A DNA stretch of 36,828 nucleotides, taken from the IMG/VR virus record IMGVR_UViG_3300046517_000041, positions 1 through 36,828 of that record; one strand, written 5' to 3'. Made by a program: the position numbers and the translations under genes. Below the pieces are notes generated by a model. That model did not search any database. It saw only the letters and a program-made list of their open reading frames with translations, and was not told the origin of the DNA. Source of the DNA: a virus. Below, piece by piece: positions 1,796-31,398 of this stretch; position 1 is the stretch's first letter, and each line of letters opens with the position of its first letter.

Positions 1796-3898
1796 ATGGA
1801 ACGTAGTAAAGCAGTAGAATTGCTACGGGCTGAGTTAGACCAACATGGTCTGACGGATTGGGGCATTCGTCTCAATCAGAACATTAATGCTCCATTCTTA
1901 GGATTGTGCAGCTACAAGGACAAATGCATTATACTTAATGCACATCATGTAGACCAGCATCCTGAAGTGGAGCTAATCAACACAATCAAGCACGAAGTAG
2001 CTCATGCATTAACGCCTGGTAACGGACATAATAGTGTATGGGCGGAAAAAGCTAGAGAGATTGGTTGTGACAATGTGAATCCTTGTGCTGGATTCGGATT
2101 ATCACCAAATATCATCGATGCTATTCGTAGTGGCGCTGATATTGAAGTGACAATCGATGAAACGGTTACAAGGAATTTCAATTACAAAGTAACACGCTTG
2201 CAAGATAAGTGTGAAACTTGCGGTAAAGTTGCGGTATTCGACAGGGAAATGACGGTTCCGGGTAAAACGGAAACGGACCATGAAGTTAAGATTACATTTC
2301 TAAAGTGTGGTCATATCAAATCAGTAGTTCTGCCGAAGGCAACTCCATTTCACTTAATGACGTGGGGCGGCAGTCTGACATGCAAGCACGAATGGCTACG
2401 TAATACTTGCTTAGAATGTGGCGCAAATCGTCCATTCCCATTCCAAGTAGAAGGAATGAAGTTTGGTGAACGCGCATTAATGATGGGCAAGGGCGTAGGA
2501 ATAATGGATGATATGGGACTGGGTAAAACAGTCCAAGCGGCTGGAATAGTTAAGCATCATCCAGAATTAGGTAAGTTCTGTCTAGCAGTTAAATCAGCAG
2601 TAAAGTTTCAATTCTTCAAGTCATTCCTTAATATCTGTGGTGATGAATTCCTGCCGCAGATAATCAATTCGTCAAACGATTTCCTGATTCCTCAGTTAAA
2701 AGTCTACATCATTAGCTACGATATGCTAGTGTTCAAGACGAAAAAGCTGAAGAGTGGGAAAACGGTCAAGCAGGGATTCGACGTTCAGAAGTTAATTGAT
2801 GCTGGCGTAAAATGCCTCATCATGGATGAATGCCAGCAGATTAAGAATCCAGATAGTAGTCGAACACAGGAAATGCGGAAACTTGCTAAGCATTGCAAGA
2901 TAATCGCATTGTCAGGAACTCCGTGGAAGAATAATGGTAGCGAATTCTTCTCAGTGCTGAATATGATTGACCCGATTAGGTTCAATTCATACGCTGCATT
3001 CTGTGATAGATGGGTAGCTACATACTGGGACGGAAACAAGTATAAGACAGGCGGGATTAAGAATCCTAAGCACTTCCAAGACTTCACTAAAGACTTCATC
3101 ATTAGACGCGAGCGCGCGACTGTCCTACCAGAACTACCGATTATCAATCGGCAGAAGCTGTTAGTTCAAATGAACGAGATTGAAGAGAAAACGTATAATG
3201 ATGAAACGAGTGACTTCGTAAAGTGGTGGAACGATAAAGTTCTCAGTGGTGAAGATACCAAAGCTGATACTGGAATGCAATTGTTAGCGAAGCTCAGTAG
3301 ATTGCGTCATATCAGCGGACTGGCAAAGATTCCAGCTACATTGGAATTCATTGAACAGTTCATGGAGCAAGCTGATAATAAGAAACTACTGATTGGTGTT
3401 CATCATATCGATGTAGGTAACATATTGTATGATGAACTAAAAGAGAAGTTCGAGCCGCTCGGTGTGAAAGTATTAAAGATTACAGGCGCAATGAATAGCA
3501 TGGATAAATACCATGCACAAGAGGAATTCAATAAGCATCCTCAAGTTCTGTGCGTAGCATCTACATTGGCAGCAGGTGAAGGAATGAATCTTCAGACTGC
3601 TAACAATATCCTAATGCACGAACGGCAATGGAATCCTGCGAATGAACAGCAATTCGAGGATAGAATCATTAGAATCGGTCAGACAGCTAATAATGTGACT
3701 GGCACGTATGTGCTAGGCATAGATACAGTAGATGACTTGTTTGATGGAATCGTGAATCAGAAGCGGAATCAATTCCACAAGTCAATGAATCAGAATGAAT
3801 TGTCTAATCCGAACTGGAATGAATCAGACCTGCTGAAAGAACTGGCTAATCTGATTGTATCCAAGTTCCAAAAGAAGCAGAAAGGAATCGCTGCATAA
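1796..3898 (+). CDS. SprT-like metalloprotease fused to SNF2-family DNA translocase
   Basis: A 700-residue protein with two enzymatic parts. Residues ~1-115 resemble the SprT/Spartan metalloprotease fold: HEVAH at 66-70 is the HExxH zinc site, H78 is the likely third ligand, and W82 follows as in SprT proteins. Two Cys pairs (C139/C142 and C205/C208, with C171, H173, C196 and H198 nearby) suggest zinc ribbons linking the parts. Residues ~213-640 are an SF2/SNF2 motor: Walker A MGLGKT (240-245), Walker B DECQ (344-347) instead of DEAH, SGTP (373-376), motif V AGEGMNLQ (593-600) and motif VI QQFEDRIIRIGQ (618-629). SprT proteins cut proteins cross-linked to DNA, and SNF2 motors move along duplex DNA or strip proteins. 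The fusion suggests DNA-protein crosslink removal or clearing of host DNA-bound proteins, by inference. RBS is GAGG at 1788-1791. Confidence 0.88.
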   Translation: MERSKAVELLRAELDQHGLTDWGIRLNQNINAPFLGLCSYKDKCIILNAHHVDQHPEVELINTIKHEVAHALTPGNGHNSVWAEKAREIGCDNVNPCAGFGLSPNIIDAIRSGADIEVTIDETVTRNFNYKVTRLQDKCETCGKVAVFDREMTVPGKTETDHEVKITFLKCGHIKSVVLPKATPFHLMTWGGSLTCKHEWLRNTCLECGANRPFPFQVEGMKFGERALMMGKGVGIMDDMGLGKTVQAAGIVKHHPELGKFCLAVKSAVKFQFFKSFLNICGDEFLPQIINSSNDFLIPQLKVYIISYDMLVFKTKKLKSGKTVKQGFDVQKLIDAGVKCLIMDECQQIKNPDSSRTQEMRKLAKHCKIIALSGTPWKNNGSEFFSVLNMIDPIRFNSYAAFCDRWVATYWDGNKYKTGGIKNPKHFQDFTKDFIIRRERATVLPELPIINRQKLLVQMNEIEEKTYNDETSDFVKWWNDKVLSGEDTKADTGMQLLAKLSRLRHISGLAKIPATLEFIEQFMEQADNKKLLIGVHHIDVGNILYDELKEKFEPLGVKVLKITGAMNSMDKYHAQEEFNKHPQVLCVASTLAAGEGMNLQTANNILMHERQWNPANEQQFEDRIIRIGQTANNVTGTYVLGIDTVDDLFDGIVNQKRNQFHKSMNQNELSNPNWNESDLLKELANLIVSKFQKKQKGIAA

Positions 3899-7779: not shown

Positions 7780-8073
7780 GTGAGCGAAGCTCAAAGTGGT
7801 GAGAAGTTTCCATTTGGAAACGAAAGAATTGAAGGGAAGATTATTGCTATTAATCAAAGGGGATTCGGATTTATTTCAACAATGAAGGTTCCATTTACTC
7901 GGATCTATTTCCACTGGACGAATCTAATTCCTACCACGATCAATTTTAAGGAACTTAAACGAAATGATCCGGTAGATTTCGTTCTGGAAATGAAAGAGAA
8001 TGGAACGTACAAAGCAATTAAGATTGACGTACTCGAACGCGAAACGCAAACGACTCAGGAAGCAAAAGGGTGA
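7780..8073 (+). CDS. Cold-shock-domain nucleic-acid-binding protein
   Basis: A 97-residue protein from GTG 7780, preceded by CGGGG. A longer in-frame start at 7681 would translate through the leader hairpin into a low-quality sequence and is rejected. Residues ~18-85 match the cold-shock domain: a first strand (GKIIAINQ), RNP1-like RGFGFI (27-32), RNP2-like RIYFHWT (41-47), and a final strand (TYKAIKIDVLE). Cold-shock proteins bind single-stranded RNA or DNA and act as RNA chaperones. In a replication operon it may serve as an ssDNA or mRNA chaperone. An acidic/Gln tail follows. The stop overlaps the polymerase GTG (GTGA). Confidence 0.8.
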   Translation: MSEAQSGEKFPFGNERIEGKIIAINQRGFGFISTMKVPFTRIYFHWTNLIPTTINFKELKRNDPVDFVLEMKENGTYKAIKIDVLERETQTTQEAKG

Positions 8074-9791
8074 GCGATAACTACGTACCGGGGATGGGTC
8101 CAACTAGTCCCCGAATAATGCTATTGGGTGAAGCCCCCACTACAATGGACGTAATAAAGAAGCGTCCATTTGCTAACACCCGTGAATTAGATTTACTATT
8201 AAAAGATGCAGGTATCCAAAAGGGTAACTGCTGGATGACGAACGTCTTCAAAGAACCTATTCCAGCATCACCAACTAAGAAGAAGATACCAGCATTTGTT
8301 AGAGCTGAACAAGCCGGACTAAATATTAGGCAGTCCCTTCTAGAACTCCAGACGGAGATTAACGGTGTTAAACCGAATATTATAATCGGACTTGGTGGCA
8401 CAGCACTGTGGGCACTAACCGGAATTAAACCTAGAGGTAAGAAAAAGAAAAATGAAGACGACCGCGTTTCTCTCCCTCATGGTGGGATTACTGATTATCG
8501 GGGTTCTATTCTGTTTGGAATGGGACGAAAAGTAGTCTGTACATATAATCCAGCACAGCTAGATTGGAATGCATCAGATATTGAATTTAATGGTTACTGG
8601 AATCGTCAAGTAATCATAAACGATTTGAAACGGGGACTTGAAGAATCGTTCGATGAGAAGTTAAATCTGCCACAGCGTACCATTGAAATCTGTAAGTCTT
8701 CTGAACAGTTTGCAAGGTTCAGAGAGATGTACAAGAATAAGATGGAGATGGCAGTAGATATTGAAGCAGGCGGACATTTCCTTCCAGCCGCTATTGGCTT
8801 TGCATTTACTAGAACGCATGCGATGGTCGTTCCACTCTGGAATATAAACGAGTATAAGTTTATTCCAGATAGTGACATGGCTCGGATGTGGCTTCATGTG
8901 AGTGAATTATTATATGAAAAAGAAATCATCGGGCAAAACTTCAATTACGATCGAGATAAAATTAGGAGAATTGGATTCATCATCCGAAGACTTAAGTCTG
9001 ATATCATGCTTAAATGTCATGCAATTAACCCAGAGCTTCCAAAGAGTCTTGCTTTCAACACTTCAATATATACCAAGGAGCCCTTCTATAAAAATGAAGG
9101 TATGTACGAAGGATCGTTTGACGACTTACTACTTGGATGCGGACGGGATTGTTGCGTCACCAAAGAGATTGACGAAGTTACGGAGCCTGAACTTGAAGAA
9201 ATCGGACAAAAATCCTACTTCTACAACTTCATGATGAAGTGGCCGGAACTGTATCTTCTTATGGAGAATACCGGCTTTAAGGTTGATTACGATAAGCGGG
9301 ATGATTTACTTCGTAAATATGTAGCATGGACGGAGAAACTACAATATGAACTCTTCCTTCTCACAGGGTTCAATCTTAATGTCAACTCGCCTAAACAGGT
9401 TAACTTTCTTTTATTCGAAGAACTCAAACTTCCTCGCCGTGCAGGTACAAGTGAAGAAGAACTTACGAGTTTGCTTAATCTACAGTCCTTCACTGACGAG
9501 AGTAAACGCACTATCGTTGAGAAGATTTTGGAAAAGCGGAGGGTTGATAAAAGTATCGGGACTTATCTTATGGCGCTTCCGGATTACGATGGTAGGATGA
9601 AAACTACATACTTCCCTTGTTTAGATACGGGGCGGAGTAAGACGGGTCAGCAGGAGCCTCCGATTAGACCGACTATTGATATTGTAGATAACGGTAAGAA
9701 GAAAAAGAAATGCATGGGAACTGCATTCCAAACTATTACTAAGCATGGAGACATTGGACAGGACATCCGTTCAATGTACATTCCCGGTTAG
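8070..9791 (+). CDS. Family A DNA polymerase, N-terminal part: UDG-like domain, 3'-5' exonuclease, thumb
   Basis: A 573-residue protein starting at GTG overlapping the previous stop. Residues ~13-185 resemble the family 4 uracil-DNA-glycosylase fold (MLLGEAPTTMD..RPF at 17-34, IIGLGGTALWALTG at 105-118, VVCTYNPAQL at 155-164). The usual HP in the last motif is NP here, and the N-terminal CxxC of Fe-S UDGs is absent, so glycosylase activity is doubtful. A UDG-like domain is established on SPO1-type phage polymerases. Residues ~205-370 carry exonuclease motifs: D230xE232, N290xxxD294, and D360 in RDCCVT. Residues ~390-573 are the thumb and start of the palm (NVNSPKQVNFLLFEELKLP; R-x-x-K at 490-494). 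The protein stops at IRSMYIPG, just before motif A. The rest of the polymerase is at 10017-10886. Confidence 0.9.
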   Translation: MSDNYVPGMGPTSPRIMLLGEAPTTMDVIKKRPFANTRELDLLLKDAGIQKGNCWMTNVFKEPIPASPTKKKIPAFVRAEQAGLNIRQSLLELQTEINGVKPNIIIGLGGTALWALTGIKPRGKKKKNEDDRVSLPHGGITDYRGSILFGMGRKVVCTYNPAQLDWNASDIEFNGYWNRQVIINDLKRGLEESFDEKLNLPQRTIEICKSSEQFARFREMYKNKMEMAVDIEAGGHFLPAAIGFAFTRTHAMVVPLWNINEYKFIPDSDMARMWLHVSELLYEKEIIGQNFNYDRDKIRRIGFIIRRLKSDIMLKCHAINPELPKSLAFNTSIYTKEPFYKNEGMYEGSFDDLLLGCGRDCCVTKEIDEVTEPELEEIGQKSYFYNFMMKWPELYLLMENTGFKVDYDKRDDLLRKYVAWTEKLQYELFLLTGFNLNVNSPKQVNFLLFEELKLPRRAGTSEEELTSLLNLQSFTDESKRTIVEKILEKRRVDKSIGTYLMALPDYDGRMKTTYFPCLDTGRSKTGQQEPPIRPTIDIVDNGKKKKKCMGTAFQTITKHGDIGQDIRSMYIPG

Positions 9792-9799
9792 GAGAATCA

Positions 9800-10024
9800 A
9801 TGGCTATAATTGCAGATGACTGGACAATCATTAATACAATGGGTATTAGATATGTTCAAAAAAGTAATGCCGATGAAGCATATGCTAGAAATCCATTAAG
9901 TATTTATGGATTAATTGTACATTACAAGGGTACTCATGTTCATTATATGTATCCAACTGCCGCGCTTCGTGATGCTCAATTTGATGCCTTGAGAGCTGCA
10001 ATGGCGACTAAGAAAAATGGCTGA
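9800..10024 (+). CDS. 74-residue protein inserted between the two polymerase parts
   Basis: The ATG at 9800 follows AGGAG (9790-9794), which overlaps the stop of the polymerase N-part; its own stop overlaps the start of the C-part by eight bases. The protein is strand-rich with a C-terminal helix (VHYKGTHVHYMYP, then RDAQFDALRAAMATKK). It has no HNH, GIY-YIG or LAGLIDADG motif, so it is not a recognisable homing endonuclease. The insertion from 9792 to 10016 is exactly 225 bases, and the two polymerase parts lie in the same frame. It may be a small gene that jumped into polA, a linker or assembly factor for the split enzyme, or an ORF in a very small intron. Function unknown. Confidence 0.7.
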   Translation: MAIIADDWTIINTMGIRYVQKSNADEAYARNPLSIYGLIVHYKGTHVHYMYPTAALRDAQFDALRAAMATKKNG

Positions 10025-10886
10025 GATATTCGTACAGGCTGATAGTAGTCAGGCAGAGGCAAGAATCGTCTTCTTGTTAGCTAATGATGAACAAGCACTA
10101 AAGGATATAGACGAACATGATTATCACGCTCTCACTGCTTCTTGGTTCTTCGGCGGCACTGAATTTGATTATTCTAAAAAAGTGTTGGGATATGAGCATC
10201 CGATTAGATTTGCTGGCAAGACTCTCAGACACGCCGGACATCTCGGAGCAAGTAAAAATCGCGCCACTGTTGAACTTAATACTCAGGCGCGGAAATACAA
10301 AATTCCCATCAAAATAGATCCTGCGACTAGCGACCGCGCTCTTAAGATATTTCATAAGAAGCAGCCGAAGATTCAGGGCGTATTTCAGAATGGAATCGTC
10401 GAATGTCTCAAACGTAATCGTACACTTGTGGCGCCAATACCGTGGGGATTTGATATCGAATACGGAGGTCGGCGTACTTTCTTTGAAAGATTTGGAGACG
10501 ATTTGTTCCGAATGGCCTTCAGTTATATCCCCCAACGGGGAGTATCTGATAATACTAAAGCCGCTGGGATCAGAATCCTTCGTATCATTGAGGATATCAA
10601 GATCATAATGGAGTCACATGATGCTCTTTTATTCTCTTTCGACGACAAGTATTTGGACACTTACTGTCCTATCATTAAACGTGAGATGGAGCGTCCAATC
10701 AATTTCGAGAATTGTAGTCTTAAACGGCGCGCTCTCAAGATACCGTGTGATGTGGAAATAGGCTACAATTACCAAGACTTCAAAAAGTATAAACAGATTA
10801 AGGAACTCGAAAATATAGAAATAGAAATACCGAAGGAGGAAGTATGCAAGAAAAAATCATTTATCGTGGACGAGAATACCCTATAG
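10017..10886 (+). CDS. Family A DNA polymerase, C-terminal part: palm and fingers with motifs A, B, C
   Basis: A 289-residue protein continuing the polymerase split at 9791. Motif A is FVQADSSQAEARI with catalytic D9. Motif B is R64-x3-K68 then RHAGHLG (71-77), where His sits at the position of E. coli Pol I Phe762 and Leu at Tyr766. Motif C is ESHDALLF with catalytic D202, the usual E replaced by A. The palm-fingers order is therefore complete, so the two chains could rebuild an active enzyme. There is no strong Shine-Dalgarno site before ATG 10017, so translation probably depends on the inserted ORF. The last ~20 residues are acidic/basic and overlap the next gene by 43 bases. Confidence 0.88.
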   Translation: MAEIFVQADSSQAEARIVFLLANDEQALKDIDEHDYHALTASWFFGGTEFDYSKKVLGYEHPIRFAGKTLRHAGHLGASKNRATVELNTQARKYKIPIKIDPATSDRALKIFHKKQPKIQGVFQNGIVECLKRNRTLVAPIPWGFDIEYGGRRTFFERFGDDLFRMAFSYIPQRGVSDNTKAAGIRILRIIEDIKIIMESHDALLFSFDDKYLDTYCPIIKREMERPINFENCSLKRRALKIPCDVEIGYNYQDFKKYKQIKELENIEIEIPKEEVCKKKSFIVDENTL

Positions 10887-14610: not shown

Positions 14611-17600
14611 TTATCGTCCGTAGGTTTGAGTACCTAATCCAGCGATAGATGCTCCAGATGCTAAAGCTCCTTGGAATGCAGACGGCGCTCCAGTATGATT
14701 CGGCTTACCCATATATTCCTGAACGATCTTAGGAATATTAGGTGCAATAGACGGATCATCTTTCCAGATATCGTATAGATCCTGAGCTACAATAGGAGTG
14801 ATACGTTTAGCCATAGCAACTTTAGCATCGAATGGTGTACCATCAAAGTCTTTACCAGCCATCCAACTCCAGACAAAAGATGGTACAGGCGCCAACTTAT
14901 TAGCTACGAAACGTTCGGCTACATCCTTCCTAGTTTGGCCCCCGAATTTAGGATGGGTTAAGTCGGACGTTTTTCCCGTAATAGAACTCGTAGACTGGCC
15001 CATTGCAATACGAGAAGCAGCTACTAAATACTGCTGGTATCCATCGAACGGATCAACTCTAGTACTACCAAACCGAATCTTTCCAAAGTCAGTATTATAC
15101 GGATCGTTATTTACAGTAGCTCCAATCTGCTTAGCTAACTGTCCCATTAGCAGTCCAGTTCCAGCTAATCCAATTACCGACTTTAACATATTAGTACGTA
15201 CAACTGGAGGTACGTTCATGTAGTAGCGTGGATTAAATGCCCTGCCCCACATCTGTAGACGTGAAGCCTGGAATCTAGGTGCAAAGAACATATCAGCTAA
15301 CATTGGAGCAGCCGCATCGAACTTAGCACCTAAACTACCACGTCCTGTAGTGACATTGATGTAATCAGCAATCTTTCCTGCATCTACTAGATTATTCTCA
15401 GCTCCTGCCTGCTTAACCATCGACTTAAAGGTATCAGCACGGAGCTTATTGATATAAGCAGTATATGCACGAATAGACGGACGCGCTCCTAACATCTTCT
15501 CTGCAAGATGAGACTGGAAATATTCTTCTCGATGATTAGCTGCATCGGTCAGTTCTAATCCCGCCTTACGAGCAAATGACCCGCCTTTAGCATCTTGGAA
15601 GAATCCAGATGGATCATCCTTGATACTCTGCATAATATTATTATAGGCACCTTCTGATCCCATAGCTTCCATCATGGGCTTCCATGATTTCCACCATTCG
15701 GGACGCATGATTAATCCAAGTCCCTGCTTACCGGGCGCACTTAAATCATACGCAGTAAGCATAGTACGTTGGAAATTAACCATCTGACGGATAATTCCAG
15801 CTTTTTCTTTAGGCTTAGCAGTCTTTAATGCTTCAACACCATGTTGACCAATATTAGCAATACGCTGTGGTATTTCATGCTGTGGAACATTCTGCTGAAC
15901 CTGCTTTACTGATTCTGTGGTAGATTGTTCAAGGGGGTGGCGTTTTCCGAAAAGTTGTTCTTCTGGAGTGGTTGCTGTGGAAGCAGTTCCGCCTCCATTT
16001 GCTGTAGCATCGCCCTGAACGCTTTTCCCTCTACCTCTGGAAGCGTCTGACTTGATGCCTGTTCTGTTAAGAAGATTTTCCGGAGTGCTAACTCTCCCTT
16101 CTCTTTCAGAATAGATCCGTAATAGGTCCGGAATCGTTGCATCATTTGCACCACCGGATTGGTTGTAGTCGATGACATCTTTTAATGCTCCAGATGCTTC
16201 TTCAAATTTATCGGGGCCAAAATTATCATAGATATGCGAGAGACTATTTAACCAGTTTAGTCCATGTCCCGCATCCCTGACAGTATGTGAATGAGATACT
16301 TCACTCACATAATTCTTCATATAGGGGCCAATATCGGGATGACTCATATCTACATTATCCCATTTGGCTTGATCCCTAATATCACCAATATGACCTACTT
16401 CATGCAATGCTGTAGCAATGTTAAAGTCTGCCGCAGCTTCAGGAGTCATACTACCCATTGAAATGAATGGGTTAATTAGAATAGTCGATTTTCCTGATTT
16501 ATCAGGATTAGGAATATGGATACCATGATGATCAGGATCCATAGAAATTCCGATTTTCTCTAATCCTGCTCCCCAACCCTTTTGACCAGCAGCTTTAACA
16601 GCAGTATCAATAACACTATCCATTAAAGTGCTAAATGCATTGATAAATGGACTACTCTTAATAGCAGCATGTTCTCCTTGAGTTAGGATATCTCCAGGAT
16701 CGTACAGAACTACCGGACGCTTAGTAGGTGTATCCGTCTGAATCGGAGTCATGTCTTTATACATGGCCCGTAGACGATCCTTCTGCTTCTCAAGCGCGCC
16801 CGAAATCAAGTTGTCATTAATCCACTTATTAACAGCCTCATGAGCCGCCTGACTCATATTTTCACGACTACTGTTAAATGGATATCCTTCTTCTCCTTCA
16901 ACTACATTAGCACGAACGTCAGCGGTAACTTTTCCAGGCACACTTCTTAATGGACCATATTCACTATATCGTCCACCTTCATTAAATTGGTGAAGTCCAT
17001 TATTCTGTACATCTAGGCCGAAATTTTGATGAACATCAGCATCAGTCGGCTCATCATAATGAATATTAATATCAGCTCCAGGAATATGAATAGTATCTTG
17101 TAATTTGGGCTTAGACTTAGGAACATAAGTATCAGAATACTTAGATTCAAGTTCAGTTCCAGGTTCACCTTTTAAGAATTTGTTCTGTTCAGAATCCGTA
17201 TGCATAATATTACGGCCAGCAATAATAGGAGAATCATTATTTAATGAATTCTCACCCATATTCTTAATCTGTCTACTTGCATAATAAAAATCATTCGTTT
17301 CAGGATAATAAACCTTAGCCTGAAATCCAGTAGGCGTACCCGGAGGCATCTCAGTCGTAGTAATCGGAACTCCTTCATCCTGATTCTTTAACTGTTCAGG
17401 AGTTCCTTCAAATGTATGTTTAAGTATCTTTCCACCTTCTTTAACAATTGATTCATACTTAGAATAAGTTCCACCGAGCATAGGAGCAGCTTTAGCGAAG
17501 CCAAATCCCCCCGATGCATCTTTTTCATCCATCTTGCCAGATTTGCCAAGATCAGTTAATACAGTATAAATCTGATCCTTAGTTAAGCCTCTTCCCTTAT

Positions 17601-19308
17601 CTTTAACTGTAAGAGAATTGGCTCTTTTATTTGTAACTGGATCTATATCATACTCATTTGTTAAAGTACGAATTGGTTCTTTCGTACCAGAAATACGATG
17701 TTCATCAGCCGCATTCTGAATCAATTCTTTTGCAGCAATTAACGGACGATCACTCTTATACAGAGTTGTACCAATAATACTCAATACACGAGGATCAGCC
17801 CCTCCCATTGCTACGTTTTCAGGCTTATTCTTAGCTCTCATTTCCTGCGGGAATAAATTCCTCATTTCACTATCAGATTCCCGAGCAAGTCTATCCTTTT
17901 CTAAAGACTGTCGGAATCGGTCTAATAATTCAGGATCTACTTCAGGATGATTAGCTAGTTCTTCTGCTACTTGAGGATCTTCCTTAGCTTTCTCTACAAT
18001 ATCTTCTTCAGGTGCAGGAGTTTCGCGTGGAGGCTCAGGACTAGTTTCCTTCCTCTTAGCCATAGCATCTGCAACTTGCTTATTACTCGGAATCTCACCC
18101 GGCTTAGGTCCGAATTCTTCCCATCCTTGCTTATTGGTAAATGAAGAATTAAATTTAGTTCCCTTCTCTAAATCAGGTGGAGTACCAAAGAACGGCGGAC
18201 GGGCTTCAGGTAAATGGGCACCATCGGGTAAGAATTCATTCGGCATGAATGTATTCCCACCCATATCAAGTCCCTGTTGCTGAGCACCAGAAGTAAACTT
18301 AGTAGGCTCCTGTGGTAAATCTCCAAAATCTAACTGTGTAGGCCGGGTAAATGGAGCAGGATCACCAAAAGCAGGTTGATGCGTTTGCGGTACATTATAA
18401 TCAAGTAAATTCATTCCAGGCGGAGCTTCACCTTCAGTCTGTAATGTTAGGGGCTTATTAAACTTGGTAGTTAATGCCTTACCACTAGGACTCTTAGCAG
18501 GAGGTGTAACAGGCTCCCCTGCTGGAGTAGGTCTAGTTTCTTTAGTTAAATCGATTGGCTGATTAAACTGATGAGTTAAAGCATCTGCTGGAGTAGGACC
18601 ATGCATTACTTCAGGAGGTGCAGGTGGCATTTCCTTAATAGGAGCGTGAGGACTATGAAACGCGCCCGCAACTCCACCCGCAATTTCAGGAATAGCCTGT
18701 AATTTCTCTTGCCAAGACTTATTAGGATCTAATTCTGTACCCGCACCATGAACAGCAAACGCGGCTCCTCCTAATCTACTTAATGTACGTATTGCCGAAC
18801 TTAAGAGAGGAATATCTCCACCTGTCGGAGCAGCAGTAAGTAATCCTAAATCAGAGGTATATCCTGAAGCAGTATCAGCTAATCCCTTTAATCCACCTGA
18901 TAAAGCACCCTGTTCCATAGCAATCGCTTGCTGTGCCTTATCTGCTAAATTAGGAAAATTCTTTTTTACAAAATCAGGAATAGAACGGCTGGCAGCATTG
19001 GGATCAGTTAATGCTTCTTCAGCGGGTTTGGTATAATCTCCGAAATTAATATGGGGACGATTTAATTCATCCCAAATAGCTTTTCCCGGAGGCGTATCAG
19101 GCGGAGCTTCAGCAGGCAATCTATCAGGATTACCTGTATATGGAGTTTGAGCTTGGACAGGAGGCGTAGCTGTAGGCTCCTGAACAGGCTCAAAACTACT
19201 CATATCCGGTTCTGGAGAAACCGGCTCAAAACTACTTAAATCCGGTCCTTGTGGCTTACGAGCGGGCTTAGGAAAGCCGGATGCATCCTGTAGAATAGGG
19301 GGATACAT
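14611..19308 (-). CDS. 1565-residue polyvalent internal virion protein with GHKL ATPase and metalloprotease domains
   Basis: The largest gene. Residues 1-500 are Pro/Gly-rich with short repeats (SSFEPV twice; ALTxxFNxPxxL twice). Residues ~505-650 have the Bergerat/GHKL ATP-binding signature: N-box E528..Q531-N532..D535 (KELIQNAADE), G1 box D570xG572xG574 (DKGRGL) and G2 box GGFGFA (600-605). Residues ~880-1075 hold a zinc metalloprotease: HEVGH (969-973) and a downstream SEREGR with E1068/E1070 as candidate third ligand. Residues ~1130-1565 resemble an LPD-type 'large polyvalent protein' C-terminal region (MFFAPRFQASRLQMW near 1340) with a hydrophobic segment near 1375-1395. The position after fibre and peptidase genes matches T7 gp16, so it is probably packaged and ejected with the DNA. 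Joined to the upstream gene by TAATG. Confidence 0.8.
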   Translation of the reverse strand: MYPPILQDASGFPKPARKPQGPDLSSFEPVSPEPDMSSFEPVQEPTATPPVQAQTPYTGNPDRLPAEAPPDTPPGKAIWDELNRPHINFGDYTKPAEEALTDPNAASRSIPDFVKKNFPNLADKAQQAIAMEQGALSGGLKGLADTASGYTSDLGLLTAAPTGGDIPLLSSAIRTLSRLGGAAFAVHGAGTELDPNKSWQEKLQAIPEIAGGVAGAFHSPHAPIKEMPPAPPEVMHGPTPADALTHQFNQPIDLTKETRPTPAGEPVTPPAKSPSGKALTTKFNKPLTLQTEGEAPPGMNLLDYNVPQTHQPAFGDPAPFTRPTQLDFGDLPQEPTKFTSGAQQQGLDMGGNTFMPNEFLPDGAHLPEARPPFFGTPPDLEKGTKFNSSFTNKQGWEEFGPKPGEIPSNKQVADAMAKRKETSPEPPRETPAPEEDIVEKAKEDPQVAEELANHPEVDPELLDRFRQSLEKDRLARESDSEMRNLFPQEMRAKNKPENVAMGGADPRVLSIIGTTLYKSDRPLIAAKELIQNAADEHRISGTKEPIRTLTNEYDIDPVTNKRANSLTVKDKGRGLTKDQIYTVLTDLGKSGKMDEKDASGGFGFAKAAPMLGGTYSKYESIVKEGGKILKHTFEGTPEQLKNQDEGVPITTTEMPPGTPTGFQAKVYYPETNDFYYASRQIKNMGENSLNNDSPIIAGRNIMHTDSEQNKFLKGEPGTELESKYSDTYVPKSKPKLQDTIHIPGADINIHYDEPTDADVHQNFGLDVQNNGLHQFNEGGRYSEYGPLRSVPGKVTADVRANVVEGEEGYPFNSSRENMSQAAHEAVNKWINDNLISGALEKQKDRLRAMYKDMTPIQTDTPTKRPVVLYDPGDILTQGEHAAIKSSPFINAFSTLMDSVIDTAVKAAGQKGWGAGLEKIGISMDPDHHGIHIPNPDKSGKSTILINPFISMGSMTPEAAADFNIATALHEVGHIGDIRDQAKWDNVDMSHPDIGPYMKNYVSEVSHSHTVRDAGHGLNWLNSLSHIYDNFGPDKFEEASGALKDVIDYNQSGGANDATIPDLLRIYSEREGRVSTPENLLNRTGIKSDASRGRGKSVQGDATANGGGTASTATTPEEQLFGKRHPLEQSTTESVKQVQQNVPQHEIPQRIANIGQHGVEALKTAKPKEKAGIIRQMVNFQRTMLTAYDLSAPGKQGLGLIMRPEWWKSWKPMMEAMGSEGAYNNIMQSIKDDPSGFFQDAKGGSFARKAGLELTDAANHREEYFQSHLAEKMLGARPSIRAYTAYINKLRADTFKSMVKQAGAENNLVDAGKIADYINVTTGRGSLGAKFDAAAPMLADMFFAPRFQASRLQMWGRAFNPRYYMNVPPVVRTNMLKSVIGLAGTGLLMGQLAKQIGATVNNDPYNTDFGKIRFGSTRVDPFDGYQQYLVAASRIAMGQSTSSITGKTSDLTHPKFGGQTRKDVAERFVANKLAPVPSFVWSWMAGKDFDGTPFDAKVAMAKRITPIVAQDLYDIWKDDPSIAPNIPKIVQEYMGKPNHTGAPSAFQGALASGASIAGLGTQTYGR

Positions 19309-20489
19309 TACTCATCGCCTCCCGGTCCAATTAAGTTAGTCAACTGAGGATAATTGGTAAAAGTCTGTGGAGCAGTAGATGGCTTAGTAGATTGAGTACC
19401 AGGATTAACAATCTCTACACCGGGATGCTGTGCAGCAGTTGGGTCCATATAACCTAACTGTCCATTTACACGAACTAAGACTTTACCATCAGGACGCTGA
19501 CCGGGAGTAGGCTGAGCCGAAGACTGCTGACTAGGATTATTCTTATCCACATAAGATGGATTCTGAGCAGGCTGTGCATTAGGCTCACCAAGATATTTCT
19601 TAATTAATGCCCTTTGTGCATCTGTAGGTCCAGTAGGACCAGTAAACACACCTCCAGGAGTAGTTTCATTAATAGATACTATACCACTATTAGGATCTCT
19701 AGCAGTCATTGCAGCTAATTCAGGATGATCGATCTGCAACTTCTGATAAGCATTATTAAATCGTACCTTATCCTGACTAGGTAGCATAGTCGGATTATAA
19801 GCACCCGGAGTCTGCTTCAATTTAATGGCATTTGCACCCTTAGTATTAGCTACATCCTGAGCACCCTGATTACGTAGTTTAATATTAGTCTCTCGATTGG
19901 GCTGTTTAGTATTTTCAAGATTAACAGCATTCTGACCACGGGCGCCAATCTGATTCATTACATCAGCAGCTTTTTCAGTACCAGTTTCAGTACCCTGAGC
20001 TACACCCGTATCAACGATTCTACCCGTCTTAGAATCAATATAATAAGCATCCCCACCAGCCGTCTTCATCTGAATATACTTCGGCTGCTGAGAAGTCTGG
20101 GACTTAATATCAAGTCCTTCTTGACCTAACTTATTCTTATCAGCTTCAGTTTTCTGAGCTAATTGTAATTTCTGTCGATCAGTTTCTTCCTTCTCAAATG
20201 GATTAAGTTGGAATCCACCATTTCTTAATCCTGGAGCACTAACTGCACCCCCATTAACATTACTAGGTGAAGTAGGCTGCGGCCCTCCAGAAATACCATT
20301 AGATTGCAGGGCATTCATTTTTGACATATCCTGAAATCGCTGATTTCTCTGGAGATTCATTAAATCAGTTTGTTGTTGAATATGACGGTCTTCTTCACTT
20401 TTCTTAAGTGCTAAGAAATCACCAATAGAAGGAACATCAGTCTTAAGTACTTGGGGGGCACTAAACATGGATGTATCAAACATTCCCAT
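19308..20489 (-). CDS. Q/N-rich internal virion protein candidate
   Basis: A 393-residue hydrophilic protein rich in Gln, Asn, Thr and Pro. The N-terminal ~115 residues form a helical, coiled-coil-prone region (LKKSEEDRHIQQQTDLMNLQ), then a low-complexity stretch with one folded-looking segment (YIQMKTAGGDAYYIDSKTGR). The C-terminal half is Pro/Gln linkers and a small strand-rich unit (KVLVRVNGQLGYMD). No enzyme motif is seen. The start (TAATG, with GGGAGGC upstream) and position between the 282-residue protein and the giant protein match the second ejection-protein gene of T7-like order. The assignment is by context. Confidence 0.6.
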   Translation of the reverse strand: MGMFDTSMFSAPQVLKTDVPSIGDFLALKKSEEDRHIQQQTDLMNLQRNQRFQDMSKMNALQSNGISGGPQPTSPSNVNGGAVSAPGLRNGGFQLNPFEKEETDRQKLQLAQKTEADKNKLGQEGLDIKSQTSQQPKYIQMKTAGGDAYYIDSKTGRIVDTGVAQGTETGTEKAADVMNQIGARGQNAVNLENTKQPNRETNIKLRNQGAQDVANTKGANAIKLKQTPGAYNPTMLPSQDKVRFNNAYQKLQIDHPELAAMTARDPNSGIVSINETTPGGVFTGPTGPTDAQRALIKKYLGEPNAQPAQNPSYVDKNNPSQQSSAQPTPGQRPDGKVLVRVNGQLGYMDPTAAQHPGVEIVNPGTQSTKPSTAPQTFTNYPQLTNLIGPGGDE

Positions 20490-21337
20490 TATAAGCCTCC
20501 CACTGCACTTAAGACGCGTAGTTTATTATTAGTATCCTGTTGATTAGCATTCTGTTCTAACTGTGCCTGATTCTGTGCTCCACTCTGCATTAATGCTGTA
20601 GTTGCAGGAGTAGTACCATATAGACTAGTCATTCCACCTAATGCATTACCCTGTAATTCAAATGGTAATGAAAGTGACTTAAATCGATTCTCAAGATTAG
20701 CTAAACTAAACTGATTCTGCATTCCAGCAGTATCAAGATTAAACTTATTATGAGCATCCTGTTCACCAGCAGTAGTATTAGCCAATGGTACAGAAGCTGC
20801 AAGACGATTCTGAGCCTGATTCTGTGCAATTCCAGCATTAACATTAGTAGTGGCATCAGAGAGTTCACTACCCATCTCTCTTGCCATTTTAGCAGTTACA
20901 GCCGTGAGATTCGGGCTATATCCTCCTTGCAACGCTTTCTGTCTCTGTAAATCTTGCTGAGCGTTAGCATACACAGAACGAATAGGACTAACCCCACGGG
21001 CGCGCATATTATCAATATCTGCCGCACTATATCCTCCCGTTTTAGACAGATCACTTAGATTTGATATTGCACCTTTATAGTCCGAACTAGTCTGATATGT
21101 TGGAATAGTGGCAGTAGCAGTGAGATTCTGAGTTCCCATACTACCTTCCCTATTATATAAATCATTATACTTACTCATAATATTAGAATAATCATTTCCC
21201 TGCGTTTTAGCCGCAGATCCATATGCTGCATATGCATTTTGAGTAGGAGTATTAGTCTGTCCGACTTGTGTACCACTGGCGGGTACACCTGCATTAGGTT
21301 GTGTATATCTTGGATTCTGAGATACCATTCCAGCCAT
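20489..21337 (-). CDS. N/Q/A-rich internal virion protein candidate
   Basis: From ATG 21337, whose first base is the last base of the preceding stop (TAATG) and which has AGGAG upstream, the protein is 282 residues (MAGMVSQNPRY...). A longer frame to 21364 is not used because it would lie inside the previous gene and lacks a Shine-Dalgarno site. The protein is rich in Ala, Asn and Gln with predicted long helices (AQQDLQRQKALQGGY; AGIAQNQAQNRLAAS), like first internal head or ejection proteins (T7 gp14 position). No motif. The order 282, 393, 1565 residues parallels gp14-gp15-gp16. Confidence 0.6.
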   Translation of the reverse strand: MAGMVSQNPRYTQPNAGVPASGTQVGQTNTPTQNAYAAYGSAAKTQGNDYSNIMSKYNDLYNREGSMGTQNLTATATIPTYQTSSDYKGAISNLSDLSKTGGYSAADIDNMRARGVSPIRSVYANAQQDLQRQKALQGGYSPNLTAVTAKMAREMGSELSDATTNVNAGIAQNQAQNRLAASVPLANTTAGEQDAHNKFNLDTAGMQNQFSLANLENRFKSLSLPFELQGNALGGMTSLYGTTPATTALMQSGAQNQAQLEQNANQQDTNNKLRVLSAVGGL

Positions 21338-21759
21338 TATGCATTCACTCCTGCTCCGTACCAAAGAGCTAAATGATCACCCGGACGGACATCCACATGG
21401 ATAAAGGTCTTGTACTTACCAATACCTCGAATTTGGGATGTTTTAGCAATAATACGGATTACAGAGTAGAATTCATTTAGACTAATATGTGGAGGCGGAC
21501 GCAAATCAATAGCTCTGCCCTGAATATGCTGACTATTCTTGGCACCTCCGACACTAGCATTATACGTAGGCGTTCTATAAGCTGAAAGAATCGTAATTGG
21601 AGAATTTCCACAAGCTGCACGAACTAACTCGAATGCTTCACCCAATATAATGGCTCGATTAGTACGCCATTCATTAGGATAAATCGTTCCATCGTGACAA
21701 GCCAATTCTTTCCAACTTAAATGGGCTGATGGCCCTATACTAGTGTCGATAGGTGTCAT
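21337..21759 (-). CDS. Peptidase M15-type endopeptidase
   Basis: A 140-residue protein of the M15A/DUF882-like fold. The signature is SAYRTPTYN (59-67), GGAKNSQHIQGRAIDL (71-86) and FIHVDVR (119-125). Likely zinc ligands are H78, D85 and H121, with D123 nearby. Such enzymes cut peptide cross-links in the cell wall. It could be the lysis endopeptidase, or a virion-bound enzyme that opens the wall at entry, since it lies between tail and internal-protein genes. No signal peptide is seen, so a lysis role would need the holin candidate at 14395. Joined to the 282-residue gene by TAATG. Confidence 0.85.
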   Translation of the reverse strand: MTPIDTSIGPSAHLSWKELACHDGTIYPNEWRTNRAIILGEAFELVRAACGNSPITILSAYRTPTYNASVGGAKNSQHIQGRAIDLRPPPHISLNEFYSVIRIIAKTSQIRGIGKYKTFIHVDVRPGDHLALWYGAGVNA

Positions 21760-28533: not shown

Positions 28534-29096
28534 TAGTTCACCTTCTCTTTTTCAAAGTTACGCGGAACTACAATAGCTTCTCCATGAGCTAATGCATCTC
28601 CTGTATCAGTTTCATTACCGAATAGTTCCTGTTGAATCGTACTGACTCTCTGCTGAGTCTCTTCTAAACTACCTGCGTTATCATCCTTATACTTACGGAG
28701 TGAATGATCTCCATAAATAGAAGCATGAATCGTATCAATCACAATCTTACAGACTTCGTAACGTGGAGGAAGTGCATTTAGTTTGTTATCCACAAATGAC
28801 CAGATTGGCTCATAGCTAATGCTATTAACCGTCATCTGAGCATTCTCCCCACTCGTATCCACGTAACTTAACCGTTCGAGAATGTATCTGTCAGCCGCCC
28901 ACTGCTTGTATTTCGGAACTTCAAATACTTGTGGCTGAAGTAATTCAACTCCTTCTGGAGTGTATTTGGACATTCTCTTTTCGAGTTGATCATTTGACCA
29001 AACAACTCTATAGATTGGTCGATCTGAGGTCAATTCAATACCAAACTCATCTCTGAGTCTTTTATTGATTGTTTCAACAGATTCTAAGAGTTCCAT
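28533..29096 (-). CDS. Hypothetical late protein
   Basis: A 187-residue mixed alpha/beta protein with charged helices (MELLESVETINKRLRDEFGI) and a segment of strands followed by a long helix (PPRYEVCKIVIDTIHAS). The C-terminus is acidic then basic (GNETDTGDALAHGEAI, PRNFEKEKVN). No family recognised. It has TAATG junctions at both ends and belongs to the head-gene group by position. Confidence 0.55.
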   Translation of the reverse strand: MELLESVETINKRLRDEFGIELTSDRPIYRVVWSNDQLEKRMSKYTPEGVELLQPQVFEVPKYKQWAADRYILERLSYVDTSGENAQMTVNSISYEPIWSFVDNKLNALPPRYEVCKIVIDTIHASIYGDHSLRKYKDDNAGSLEETQQRVSTIQQELFGNETDTGDALAHGEAIVVPRNFEKEKVN

Positions 29097-29884
29097 TACT
29101 TCATATCCCTAAATTGCTGTCCACCTGACATAGCAGGTTCGGCAAAGGGAGATCCAATCGTTACTCCCTGTTTAGCAACTTCAGCATCAACTTCTTCTAA
29201 TGAAGGAACATGCTGCGGAAGTTCAAATACATTCTTCTGATCAAATGTAGCTGCTGTTACCCACGTTCCATCTGGTTTACGCATCGGAAATATGGTAGCA
29301 GAAAGCATGTGACCAACAGGACACTCCAAGTCACACCAGATTTCATATTTATAAAGGTCACGAGCGCGATTAAAGAAATCGATGTCATCGCACCAATGAT
29401 CTTTTTCGCATTGACCCAAACGGACCCAGGGTAAGTCATCAGACATTTTACGGAACACGTCAGTTTTAATAAGAACTGCGCCTAATCCCGTATTCTTGAC
29501 TTGGACTAAACCCTTTAGGCCCGGTCGAAGTACTGAAAATCGGCAAGCACCATTAGTAAACGACTCATCGAATAAAATCGGAAGATGAGGATGACTCCGC
29601 ATTAAGTATAAGCCAGTAACGATATCCTTGTTATGAGAAAGAAGCTGTTTAAGGATATCCGGACGCGGAACGCAATCATCATCAATAAAGAGAATGTGAC
29701 TGCAATCGTTCTTCAGGGCGATATCAATCATCGTATTACGATTACGAGCAGGTGACTGCCCATGTGCAAATGACATGATAACAGTCGTATCAGGAATATC
29801 CTTATCAATCATATTAATATAATCATAGAAATCGGCCCTTCGAGCCATTTCAAGCGTAGGAACACCAATCATTACCTTATTCAT
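29096..29884 (-). CDS. GT-A fold glycosyltransferase (family 2-like)
   Basis: A 262-residue protein with the GT-A pattern: N-terminal nucleotide-sugar strand (MIGVPTLEMARRADFYDYI), a metal site DDD at 68-70 (HILFIDDDCVPRPDIL), an acceptor-side acidic motif (CDDIDFFNRARD, D166/D167) and a later D-x-E-C-P-V-G-H (H192) matching the metal-binding His of such enzymes. It would transfer a sugar from a nucleotide donor to a virion protein, DNA or glycan. The co-transcribed radical SAM and methyltransferase genes suggest a joint modification pathway, not proven by sequence. The C-terminal ~45 residues are an acidic/Gly extension. Confidence 0.8.
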   Translation of the reverse strand: MNKVMIGVPTLEMARRADFYDYINMIDKDIPDTTVIMSFAHGQSPARNRNTMIDIALKNDCSHILFIDDDCVPRPDILKQLLSHNKDIVTGLYLMRSHPHLPILFDESFTNGACRFSVLRPGLKGLVQVKNTGLGAVLIKTDVFRKMSDDLPWVRLGQCEKDHWCDDIDFFNRARDLYKYEIWCDLECPVGHMLSATIFPMRKPDGTWVTAATFDQKNVFELPQHVPSLEEVDAEVAKQGVTIGSPFAEPAMSGGQQFRDMK

Positions 29885-29893
29885 TTCTAACTC

Positions 29894-30841
29894 CTAGTAA
29901 TTCGGAAAGAAAACTGGTTGGGGGGCAGCAGGTTCTAATCCGTTCAGGATATAATCCGTGCTCCTATTAACGGTACCTTCTAACTTTTCAAGTGAATCGA
30001 CTATTACCATCTCCTTGTTCTTGAGTTTGAGTTTAGCAATTGGGAGATATGTTCTCGATACATATTCTTTTGTACCAGTAACGGCGAGACTTCCTTTTCC
30101 CTTAAGTGGTACACCACATTGGAAGCAATGGTATCTGATTTGATCTTCAAAAGCAGTAATTGGTAACTTCCACCAATCGTCTGTGGGATATAATCCACTA
30201 AACTTGTCATTTCTTAACATCGCTTGAGCGCCTGCAATTTCGCAGAAGAACGCTCGTAATGAACCATCTACCTGACAAAGCATCGCTGACCATAACTGAT
30301 TAATATCACAGTTATTAATCAGTTTAACCTTCATTTCATAGGTTAATTCAGGAATATCATTCATTGAAACGTAAACTGGAGAATGTCCACTATCTTTAGT
30401 TCCGATAGGATTACATTCCGGCCAGTCGCGCTTCATTTCAGCATATTTTTCCATATCCGTATGAACATTTAGGTTCGATACGGCTGGATTGAACGTTTCA
30501 CGACAAATTTGACCATATCCTCGAAGATTATTACTCCAAAGTCCACGATTCTCGAATGGAATATACATTCTAAGAATCTGACAAATCTCTTTGAACTGTG
30601 GATGCATCGTCGGATTTCCACCAAAGATTCCGACTACACCCCAATAATCCTTTAGAGTCTGACAGGCCCATTCAAAGTTCTCAAGACTCATCATTATTGG
30701 CTTACCGCCAAAATTAGATCCTTGAGTACAATGTGAGCAAGCTAAATCACAGGCACGAGTAATATGAATCTGAATGATTCCATTACGCCAAGTTGGTCGC
30801 TTGTCGCCGGGGGCTTTCATATTACCGAACTCAAAACTCAT
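29894..30841 (-). CDS. Radical SAM enzyme with C-terminal Cys-rich region
   Basis: A 315-residue protein with the CxxxCxxC cluster C31, C35, C38 (CDLACSHC) for 4Fe-4S and S-adenosylmethionine, and a GGNP motif (74-77) where GGEP is usual. The second half has further Cys (C177, C188, C199, C238, C241), with CxxC at 238-241, resembling SPASM-type auxiliary cluster regions used for peptide or protein substrates. A maturase acting on a phage or host protein is therefore possible. It overlaps the upstream methyltransferase by an ATGA. Its place in a late phage operon, between capsid and adaptor genes, is unusual. Confidence 0.85.
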   Translation of the reverse strand: MSFEFGNMKAPGDKRPTWRNGIIQIHITRACDLACSHCTQGSNFGGKPIMMSLENFEWACQTLKDYWGVVGIFGGNPTMHPQFKEICQILRMYIPFENRGLWSNNLRGYGQICRETFNPAVSNLNVHTDMEKYAEMKRDWPECNPIGTKDSGHSPVYVSMNDIPELTYEMKVKLINNCDINQLWSAMLCQVDGSLRAFFCEIAGAQAMLRNDKFSGLYPTDDWWKLPITAFEDQIRYHCFQCGVPLKGKGSLAVTGTKEYVSRTYLPIAKLKLKNKEMVIVDSLEKLEGTVNRSTDYILNGLEPAAPQPVFFPNY

Positions 30842-31398
30842 AGTTTAATCCACCAAATTGATTCGTGAGTTTGTATTCCGGGGCCAAATATATCATCGAC
30901 CGCATTAATTACTCCGGGCCAATTACCAGAATAATCGTGCCCGCACAATAATCCTCCTTCTCTCATTAAATTAATTGCATGAAGAATATCAGCCTTAGCT
31001 TTATCAAAAGTATGGATCGCGTCTATAAAAATCATGTCAGTGTATGGAACACTGAACTTCGTAAACTTTGTTTTGTGCGGGATGACTTTCCTAGTTACAA
31101 TATAATCAAATAAATTCGTGGTAAATTCAGCGTAGATTGATTTCGGATTATCCTGACTCTTTCTATAATTCTGTAATGCAATATCTGTATCTAAATCAAG
31201 TCCATCATATAAACCGTCCCAAGGGTCAATGGCATGAATTATCCCTGATAGGGTATTATCAGCCATTGCCCTTGTGGAGCGGCCCTTGTATGAACCTGCT
31301 TCTAATATAACTTTCTTATCAGTCGCATGTTCAGCAAGGAAACGTAGCTCCCCGATACTCATCCATCCTTGAATATTATCTGCGGCAGCTACGTTCAT
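30838..31398 (-). CDS. Class I SAM methyltransferase (Methyltransf_24-like)
   Basis: A 186-residue Rossmann-like enzyme. Motif I is LEAGSYKGRST (32-42), an acidic motif ends the second strand (IHAIDPW, D58), and motif IV region is MIFIDAIHTFDKAKAD. GGLLCGHDY follows as a later strand-loop. This resembles the Methyltransf_24/TylF-type group that methylates sugars or small molecules. With the radical SAM enzyme and glycosyltransferase it may decorate a glycan, peptide or nucleobase. The stop overlaps the next ATG (ATGA). Confidence 0.82.
   Translation of the reverse strand: MNVAAADNIQGWMSIGELRFLAEHATDKKVILEAGSYKGRSTRAMADNTLSGIIHAIDPWDGLYDGLDLDTDIALQNYRKSQDNPKSIYAEFTTNLFDYIVTRKVIPHKTKFTKFSVPYTDMIFIDAIHTFDKAKADILHAINLMREGGLLCGHDYSGNWPGVINAVDDIFGPGIQTHESIWWIKL

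Follow-up and report, generated by a model that had tools for sequence, protein, structure and literature searches.

Genomic context of the P0001 gene

The window, by which we mean the whole 36.8-kb stretch of DNA analysed here, is a piece of a phage. It carries on its minus strand the gene for a giant protein, P0001 (Table 1). The original prediction had described an open chain of 1565 residues without naming the strand, and an ORF check confirmed this chain. The motifs listed in that prediction were also found at exactly the positions given for them, namely KELIQNAAD at residue 527, DKGRGL at 570, GGFGFA at 600, HEVGH at 969, and SEREGR at 1067. HEVGH (969-973) is the sole HExxH sequence in P0001.

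Table 1. Features of the P0001 locus, listed by position in the window
Feature	Position	Strand	Basis or remark
Polyvalent protein P0001, whole gene	14611..19308	minus	ORF open, 1565 aa, ATG start
Conserved C-terminal polyvalent (LPD-type) backbone, aa 1157-1565	14614..15840	minus	family sharing, model, Foldseek
Zincin-like domain, aa ~861-1105 (HEVGH 969-973, probable third ligand H1015, invariant R1072)	15994..16728	minus	alignments, predicted secondary structure
HExxH motif codons	16390..16404	minus	alignment, motif positions
Hsp90-type middle (S5-like) domain, aa ~701-860 (YPFxxSREnM, aa 809-818)	16729..17208	minus	hhalign, Foldseek
GHKL (Bergerat) ATP-binding domain, aa ~495-700 (N-box 527-536, G1 570-575, G2 600-605)	17209..17826	minus	profile searches
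N-terminal region, aa ~35-230, common to members without the cassette	18619..19206	minus	phmmer
Candidate internal virion protein B, 393 aa, conserved neighbour	19308..20489	minus	stop codon overlaps P0001 start by one base
Candidate internal virion protein A, 291 aa, conserved neighbour	20489..21364	minus	homologue upstream in family loci

P0001 was also encoded, with 100% identity, on a second contig, IMGVR_UViG_3300046642_000056 (47,482 bp). The overlap of both its ends with the window implies that the map is circular, at ~47.1 kb. Its large terminase showed ~28% identity to the terminases of HMO-2011-type and Roseobacter podoviruses.

Genes for two candidate internal virion proteins, B and A, lie immediately upstream of P0001. 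Among the GHKL-positive loci of the P0001 family (defined below) with enough upstream sequence, a homologue of protein B was found directly upstream in nine of 11, and a homologue of protein A upstream in all 11. Both are therefore conserved family neighbours, as expected from the proposed slot after two internal-protein candidates. T7-type ejection proteins are encoded at this position. From this gene order, we infer that P0001 is packaged and delivered with the DNA into the host. P0001 is best explained as an internal virion protein of the polyvalent kind, encoded by a podovirus and presumably carried in the particle. Elsewhere in the structural operon (29096-31398, minus strand), we noted a radical SAM protein, a putative glycosyltransferase-like protein and, by eye only, a possible methyltransferase-like protein.

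P0001 contains a GHKL ATP-binding domain and an Hsp90-type middle domain

When P0001 was searched as a single sequence, the Pfam HATPase_c_3 model gave an E-value of 0.011, below the cut-off. The NCBIfam HSP90 family gave 2.9e-7, also below its cut-off, and the curated NCBIfam HSP90/HtpG scores were far below theirs. An Hsp90 chain was matched among PDB sequences at 5.6e-5, and the PHROG RIIA family, the best PHROG neighbour, at 2.6e-8. In contrast to the weak Pfam signal from the single sequence, the GHKL assignment became secure once relatives were added to the search. A family profile built from 15 GHKL sequences matched Hsp90 chains in the PDB at 7.6e-16. Of the 19 aligned members, the 15 with a GHKL domain all gave HATPase_c matches, most of them weak (the other four have the zincin only), and one distant relative, L124, scored above the Pfam cut-off for HATPase_c_3.

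Several residues were invariant throughout the 15-member GHKL alignment: E528 and N532 of the N-box, D570 and the two glycines of G1, the G2 glycines, and R815-E816. This invariance indicates that the motifs are more than chance matches. P0001 thus has the N-box E/N, the G1 DxGxG, the G2 glycines, and the Bergerat-fold homology of the GHKL superfamily, and it is predicted to hydrolyse ATP.

Using hhalign, columns 21-384 of the module were aligned with an Hsp90-family profile at 98.7%, and the invariant YPFxxxREnM motif (R815, E816) was placed on the SRE motif of that family. In Hsp90, the SRE motif holds the catalytic-loop arginine. The predicted structure of aa 471-1125 (pLDDT 79, pTM 0.69) matched TRAP1, HtpG, and GRP94 in the PDB and RIIA proteins in the viral structure library BFVD when searched with Foldseek. 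The best viral match, A0A516L4L2 (TMq 0.54 over 751 columns), probably has the same architecture as the P0001 module.

Because the family-profile searches, the confident structure model, and the conserved Hsp90-like SRE arginine motif agree, we conclude that the ATP-binding part (aa ~495-860) is a GHKL domain followed by an Hsp90-type middle domain, with RIIA and Hsp90 as its closest relatives. The Bergerat-fold ATPase of the original prediction was therefore recovered, with HATPase matches and active-site residues retained in homologues. Its typing as Hsp90/MutL/MORC held for Hsp90, now joined by RIIA; the MORC/MutL type was rejected, as sequence, profile, and fold all favoured Hsp90/RIIA.

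A zincin-like domain follows the middle domain

The middle domain is followed immediately by a region of ~245 residues that carries the HExxH motif. In the alignment of 19 members, H969, E970, and H973 were invariant, as was R1072 within SEREGR. Downstream of HExxH, the members read had either H or E at one column, occupied in P0001 by H1015. Three subtypes were distinguished at this column: GHGxxW/F (that of P0001, as GHGLNW), EGAxFT (found with HEFNH), and HEQAHIPGGPH (in L039). The structure model predicted a helix, three strands, the HExxH helix, and a second helix starting near H1015. The aligned H/E column favours H1015, so the third zinc ligand is probably at this position and SEREGR was rejected for that role, though R1072 is invariant.

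None of the Pfam peptidase models matched this domain above the cut-off, and its profile matched no PDB sequence. MPTase-PolyVal membership was also rejected, since the Pfam model had no match in any of the 19 aligned members at E<=1. As neither a Pfam model nor a PDB sequence recognises the domain, we regard the zincin assignment as strong but not final. Of the HExxH metalloprotease that had been proposed, the conserved HExxH was confirmed and the MPTase-PolyVal match was not; the class comes from the motif, the third ligand, and the predicted secondary structure.

In two other polyvalent ORFs, L039 and L044, the C-termini are 87% identical; L039 has both GHKL and zincin, and L044 the zincin only. 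Their zincin subtype, HEQAHIPGG(P/G)H, fits the metzincin-type spacing HExxHxxGxxH.

P0001 belongs to a polyvalent protein family

We defined a family by the last ~410 residues of P0001, which yielded 89 unique phage ORFs; the 77 complete ones span 623-2377 aa. The predicted structure of this C-terminal domain (pLDDT 83, pTM 0.85) matched, in Foldseek, phage proteins annotated 'large polyvalent protein associated domain'. A weak resemblance (prob 0.38 and 0.21) to proteins carrying the annotation internal virion protein D was also seen. No significant sequence match to the C-terminus was obtained with LPD38 or the other Pfam LPD models; a Pfam LPD identity by sequence was therefore rejected, and the LPD support comes from the fold. 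A tblastn search of named phages with the zincin and C-terminal pieces found nothing.

At the other end of the chain, aa 1-240 matched four ORFs (L028, L060, L071, and L040) in phmmer, and the N-terminal ~230 residues are common to some family members without the ATPase/zincin cassette. P0001 thus combines a giant chain and an LPD-like C-terminal fold with a middle that varies among the 89 members, as polyvalent proteins do. The claim that an ATPase and an HExxH domain occur in one giant polyvalent protein was accordingly borne out. According to an earlier proposal, polyvalent proteins are delivered when the phage invades; zincins are frequent among them (PMC5512222). In one locus (L103:3450-9161), the same slot encodes a Pyr_redox_2 domain (pyridine nucleotide-disulphide oxidoreductase; 4.8e-11) instead of the GHKL-zincin cassette.

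The GHKL-zincin pair behaves as an exchangeable cassette

A GHKL domain was detected in 14 of the 89 family members, and in every one of these a zincin followed immediately. Four members had a zincin without GHKL, none had GHKL alone, and neither domain was detected in the remaining 71. This distribution bears on the idea that P0001 is an assembly or ejection machine, in which the Hsp90-like clamp would remodel internal proteins or drive DNA ejection and the zincin would act as a maturation protease. Such a role would suit a gene that lies in the structural operon and adjoins candidate internal proteins. However, the cassette is dispensable, being missing from those 71 same-backbone relatives, and a part of such a machine would be expected to be conserved, not swapped. 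We consider this explanation very improbable; the suggestion that P0001 drives DNA ejection found no support, and the lack of the module in most family members argues against it.

Co-occurrence of adjacent domains can stem from joint inheritance. On the C-terminal tree, GHKL underwent ~9 gain/loss changes, and in independent pairs, which are too few for significance, the zincin changed in the same direction as GHKL or not at all, never in the opposite one. GHKL and zincin identities were correlated with each other (rho 0.59), and neither tracked backbone identity (rho -0.09 and -0.11, respectively). In the pair L084/L089, the backbones (C-termini) are 80% identical, while GHKL is 23% and the zincin 25% identical; as judged from the sequences, this difference is a clean cassette swap. 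Both domains are under purifying selection, with dN/dS of 0.28 and 0.38 in the one pair tested.

These patterns also weigh on self-processing, the main rival to the effector role proposed below. Here the zincin would cut the polyvalent chain in the head or after entry, and the freed GHKL part would serve as an anti-defence factor resembling RIIA; ATP binding may be no more than the trigger. Processing is a role proposed for polyvalent-protein zincins, with P1 DdrB as precedent (PMC5512222), and it would agree with the location of the zincin, which separates the C-terminal backbone from the GHKL part, and with the constant presence of a zincin beside GHKL. On the other hand, no zincin was detected in the 71 members noted above, some of them >1800 aa, so there is no general need for processing. 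In addition, four zincins occur without GHKL, and the zincin diverges and exchanges with GHKL rather than with the backbone. On balance, we find self-processing somewhat unlikely.

The GHKL domain of P0001 is closest to those of L084, L039, and L037, whereas its zincin groups with those of L056, L104, and L066, which indicates that partners were re-paired and yet kept together. Recombination of partners might also be read as a sign that one chain holds two effectors acting independently, a host-targeting zincin and an ATPase like RIIA, neither of which regulates the other; polyvalent proteins often join unrelated activities (PMC5512222). Independent effectors would be expected to separate sometimes, yet GHKL without zincin was never seen and the two domains are always directly adjacent. 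Moreover, an unrelated backbone carries the pair as well. L124:7740-15494 encodes a 2584-aa protein on an unrelated 114.8-kb phage contig; this protein lacks the C-terminal backbone and has, near its N-terminus, a GHKL domain, the YPFxxxRE motif, and an HExxH with EGAxFT. We therefore regard two independent effectors as distinctly unlikely, below self-processing. The L124 protein had no named phage relative by tblastn, and it carries a second HExxH, HEFSH, at aa 854.

In a scan of bacterial and prophage contigs for the module, only the GHKL part was matched, and all 11 proteins inspected were without HExxH. The named-phage relatives of the ATPase part were RIIA proteins or unlabelled proteins adjoining rIIB. 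At the level of sequence comparison, the GHKL-zincin pair is a unit that is exchangeable between near-identical backbones.

A proposed ATP-gated protease effector

The reading that we prefer, and to which we give almost an even chance, is that P0001 is a virion-delivered, ATP-gated protease effector. In this model, the conserved N- and C-terminal parts would package P0001 and deliver it with the DNA. Between these termini would lie an exchangeable effector cassette composed of the GHKL-middle ATPase and the zincin-like protease, the latter occupying the place of the Hsp90 C-terminal dimerisation domain. ATP would be absent in the virion, leaving the module idle. After entry, ATP binding would make the clamp close around a client, and this closure would both present the client to the zincin and allow its cleavage. 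The client is most likely a host protein, of defence or of regulation, that endangers the first stage of infection.

The effector role is probably anti-defence. RIIA, a phage GHKL protein with a variable C-terminus that has been described in counter-defence, is a precedent (PMC7824862). The swapping of cassettes on constant backbones fits an arms race. Control of a fused enzyme by a GHKL domain has likewise been proposed for VcSduA, in which the enzyme is a nuclease (PMC12137116).

A broader proposal, which we put forward tentatively and hold less probable than the effector role itself, is that P0001 represents a non-AAA+ ATP-dependent protease, gated by an Hsp90-type (GHKL) clamp and borne by the particle against host proteins at infection. 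The well-known ATP-dependent proteases use AAA+ unfoldases. If the proposal is true, the coupling of a zincin to a GHKL-middle clamp would depart from this design. RIIA, the product of a classical phage gene with a poorly understood molecular role, would gain a relative with a built-in catalytic readout, and the swapped cassettes would provide a set of candidate anti-defence effectors that act early.

Comparison with known systems

P0001 resembles the polyvalent phage proteins described by Iyer et al. 2017 (PMC5512222) in its giant size, in its multiple domains, among them an HExxH domain and a C-terminal domain with an LPD-like fold, and in its exchangeable effectors. It differs in that no Pfam LPD or MPTase model scores above its cut-off on the C-terminus or the zincin. 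The main text of that paper mentions neither GHKL nor HSP90.

Phage RIIA, the rIIA lysis inhibitor associated with RexAB resistance, shares the GHKL domain and a middle domain with an SRE-type motif, and is the best neighbour of P0001 in BFVD as well as in PHROG. However, RIIA is a separate protein, encoded beside rIIB in three of four records read, whereas the P0001 module is embedded in the 1565-aa chain. HExxH, present in P0001, occurred in none of the four RIIA proteins read, and the window proteins that were scanned included no rIIB.

Hsp90, HtpG, and TRAP1 have the same N-terminal GHKL and middle domains with the catalytic-loop SRE motif. Unlike them, P0001 has a zincin where their C-terminal dimerisation domain would be, and its module is part of a polyvalent chain. 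VcSduA, a Shedu protein with a GHKL N-terminus, is similar in fusing a GHKL clamp with proposed regulatory function to a catalytic domain; it differs in that this domain is a nuclease, not a protease, and in belonging to bacterial defence rather than to a phage (PMC12137116). With T7 gp16 and podovirus internal virion protein D, P0001 shares its place in a structural operon as the large last protein after candidate internal proteins. No homology of P0001 to T7 gp16 was found, and the C-terminal fold is only weakly like internal virion protein D.

We found no description of a GHKL-zincin fusion in the open-licence papers searched, in agreement with the original prediction that the combination was a candidate for an undescribed system. 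Polyvalent proteins, their zincins, and RIIA were already known; the GHKL-zincin cassette is a real, undescribed module.

Other genes in the window

The DNA polymerase A gene is split, just before motif A, into two plus-strand ORFs (8070-9791 and 10017-10886), and the split is found in both the window and IMGVR_UViG_3300046642_000056. The 225-bp stretch that separates the two parts had no Rfam intron match and encodes a ~74-aa ORF (about 9800-10024). In the relative L030, the corresponding UDG-PolA ORF is unbroken and spans 874 aa. On the plus strand at 1796-3898, the window also encodes a 700-aa protein in which a SprT-like metallopeptidase region at the N-terminus is fused to an SNF2-type helicase.
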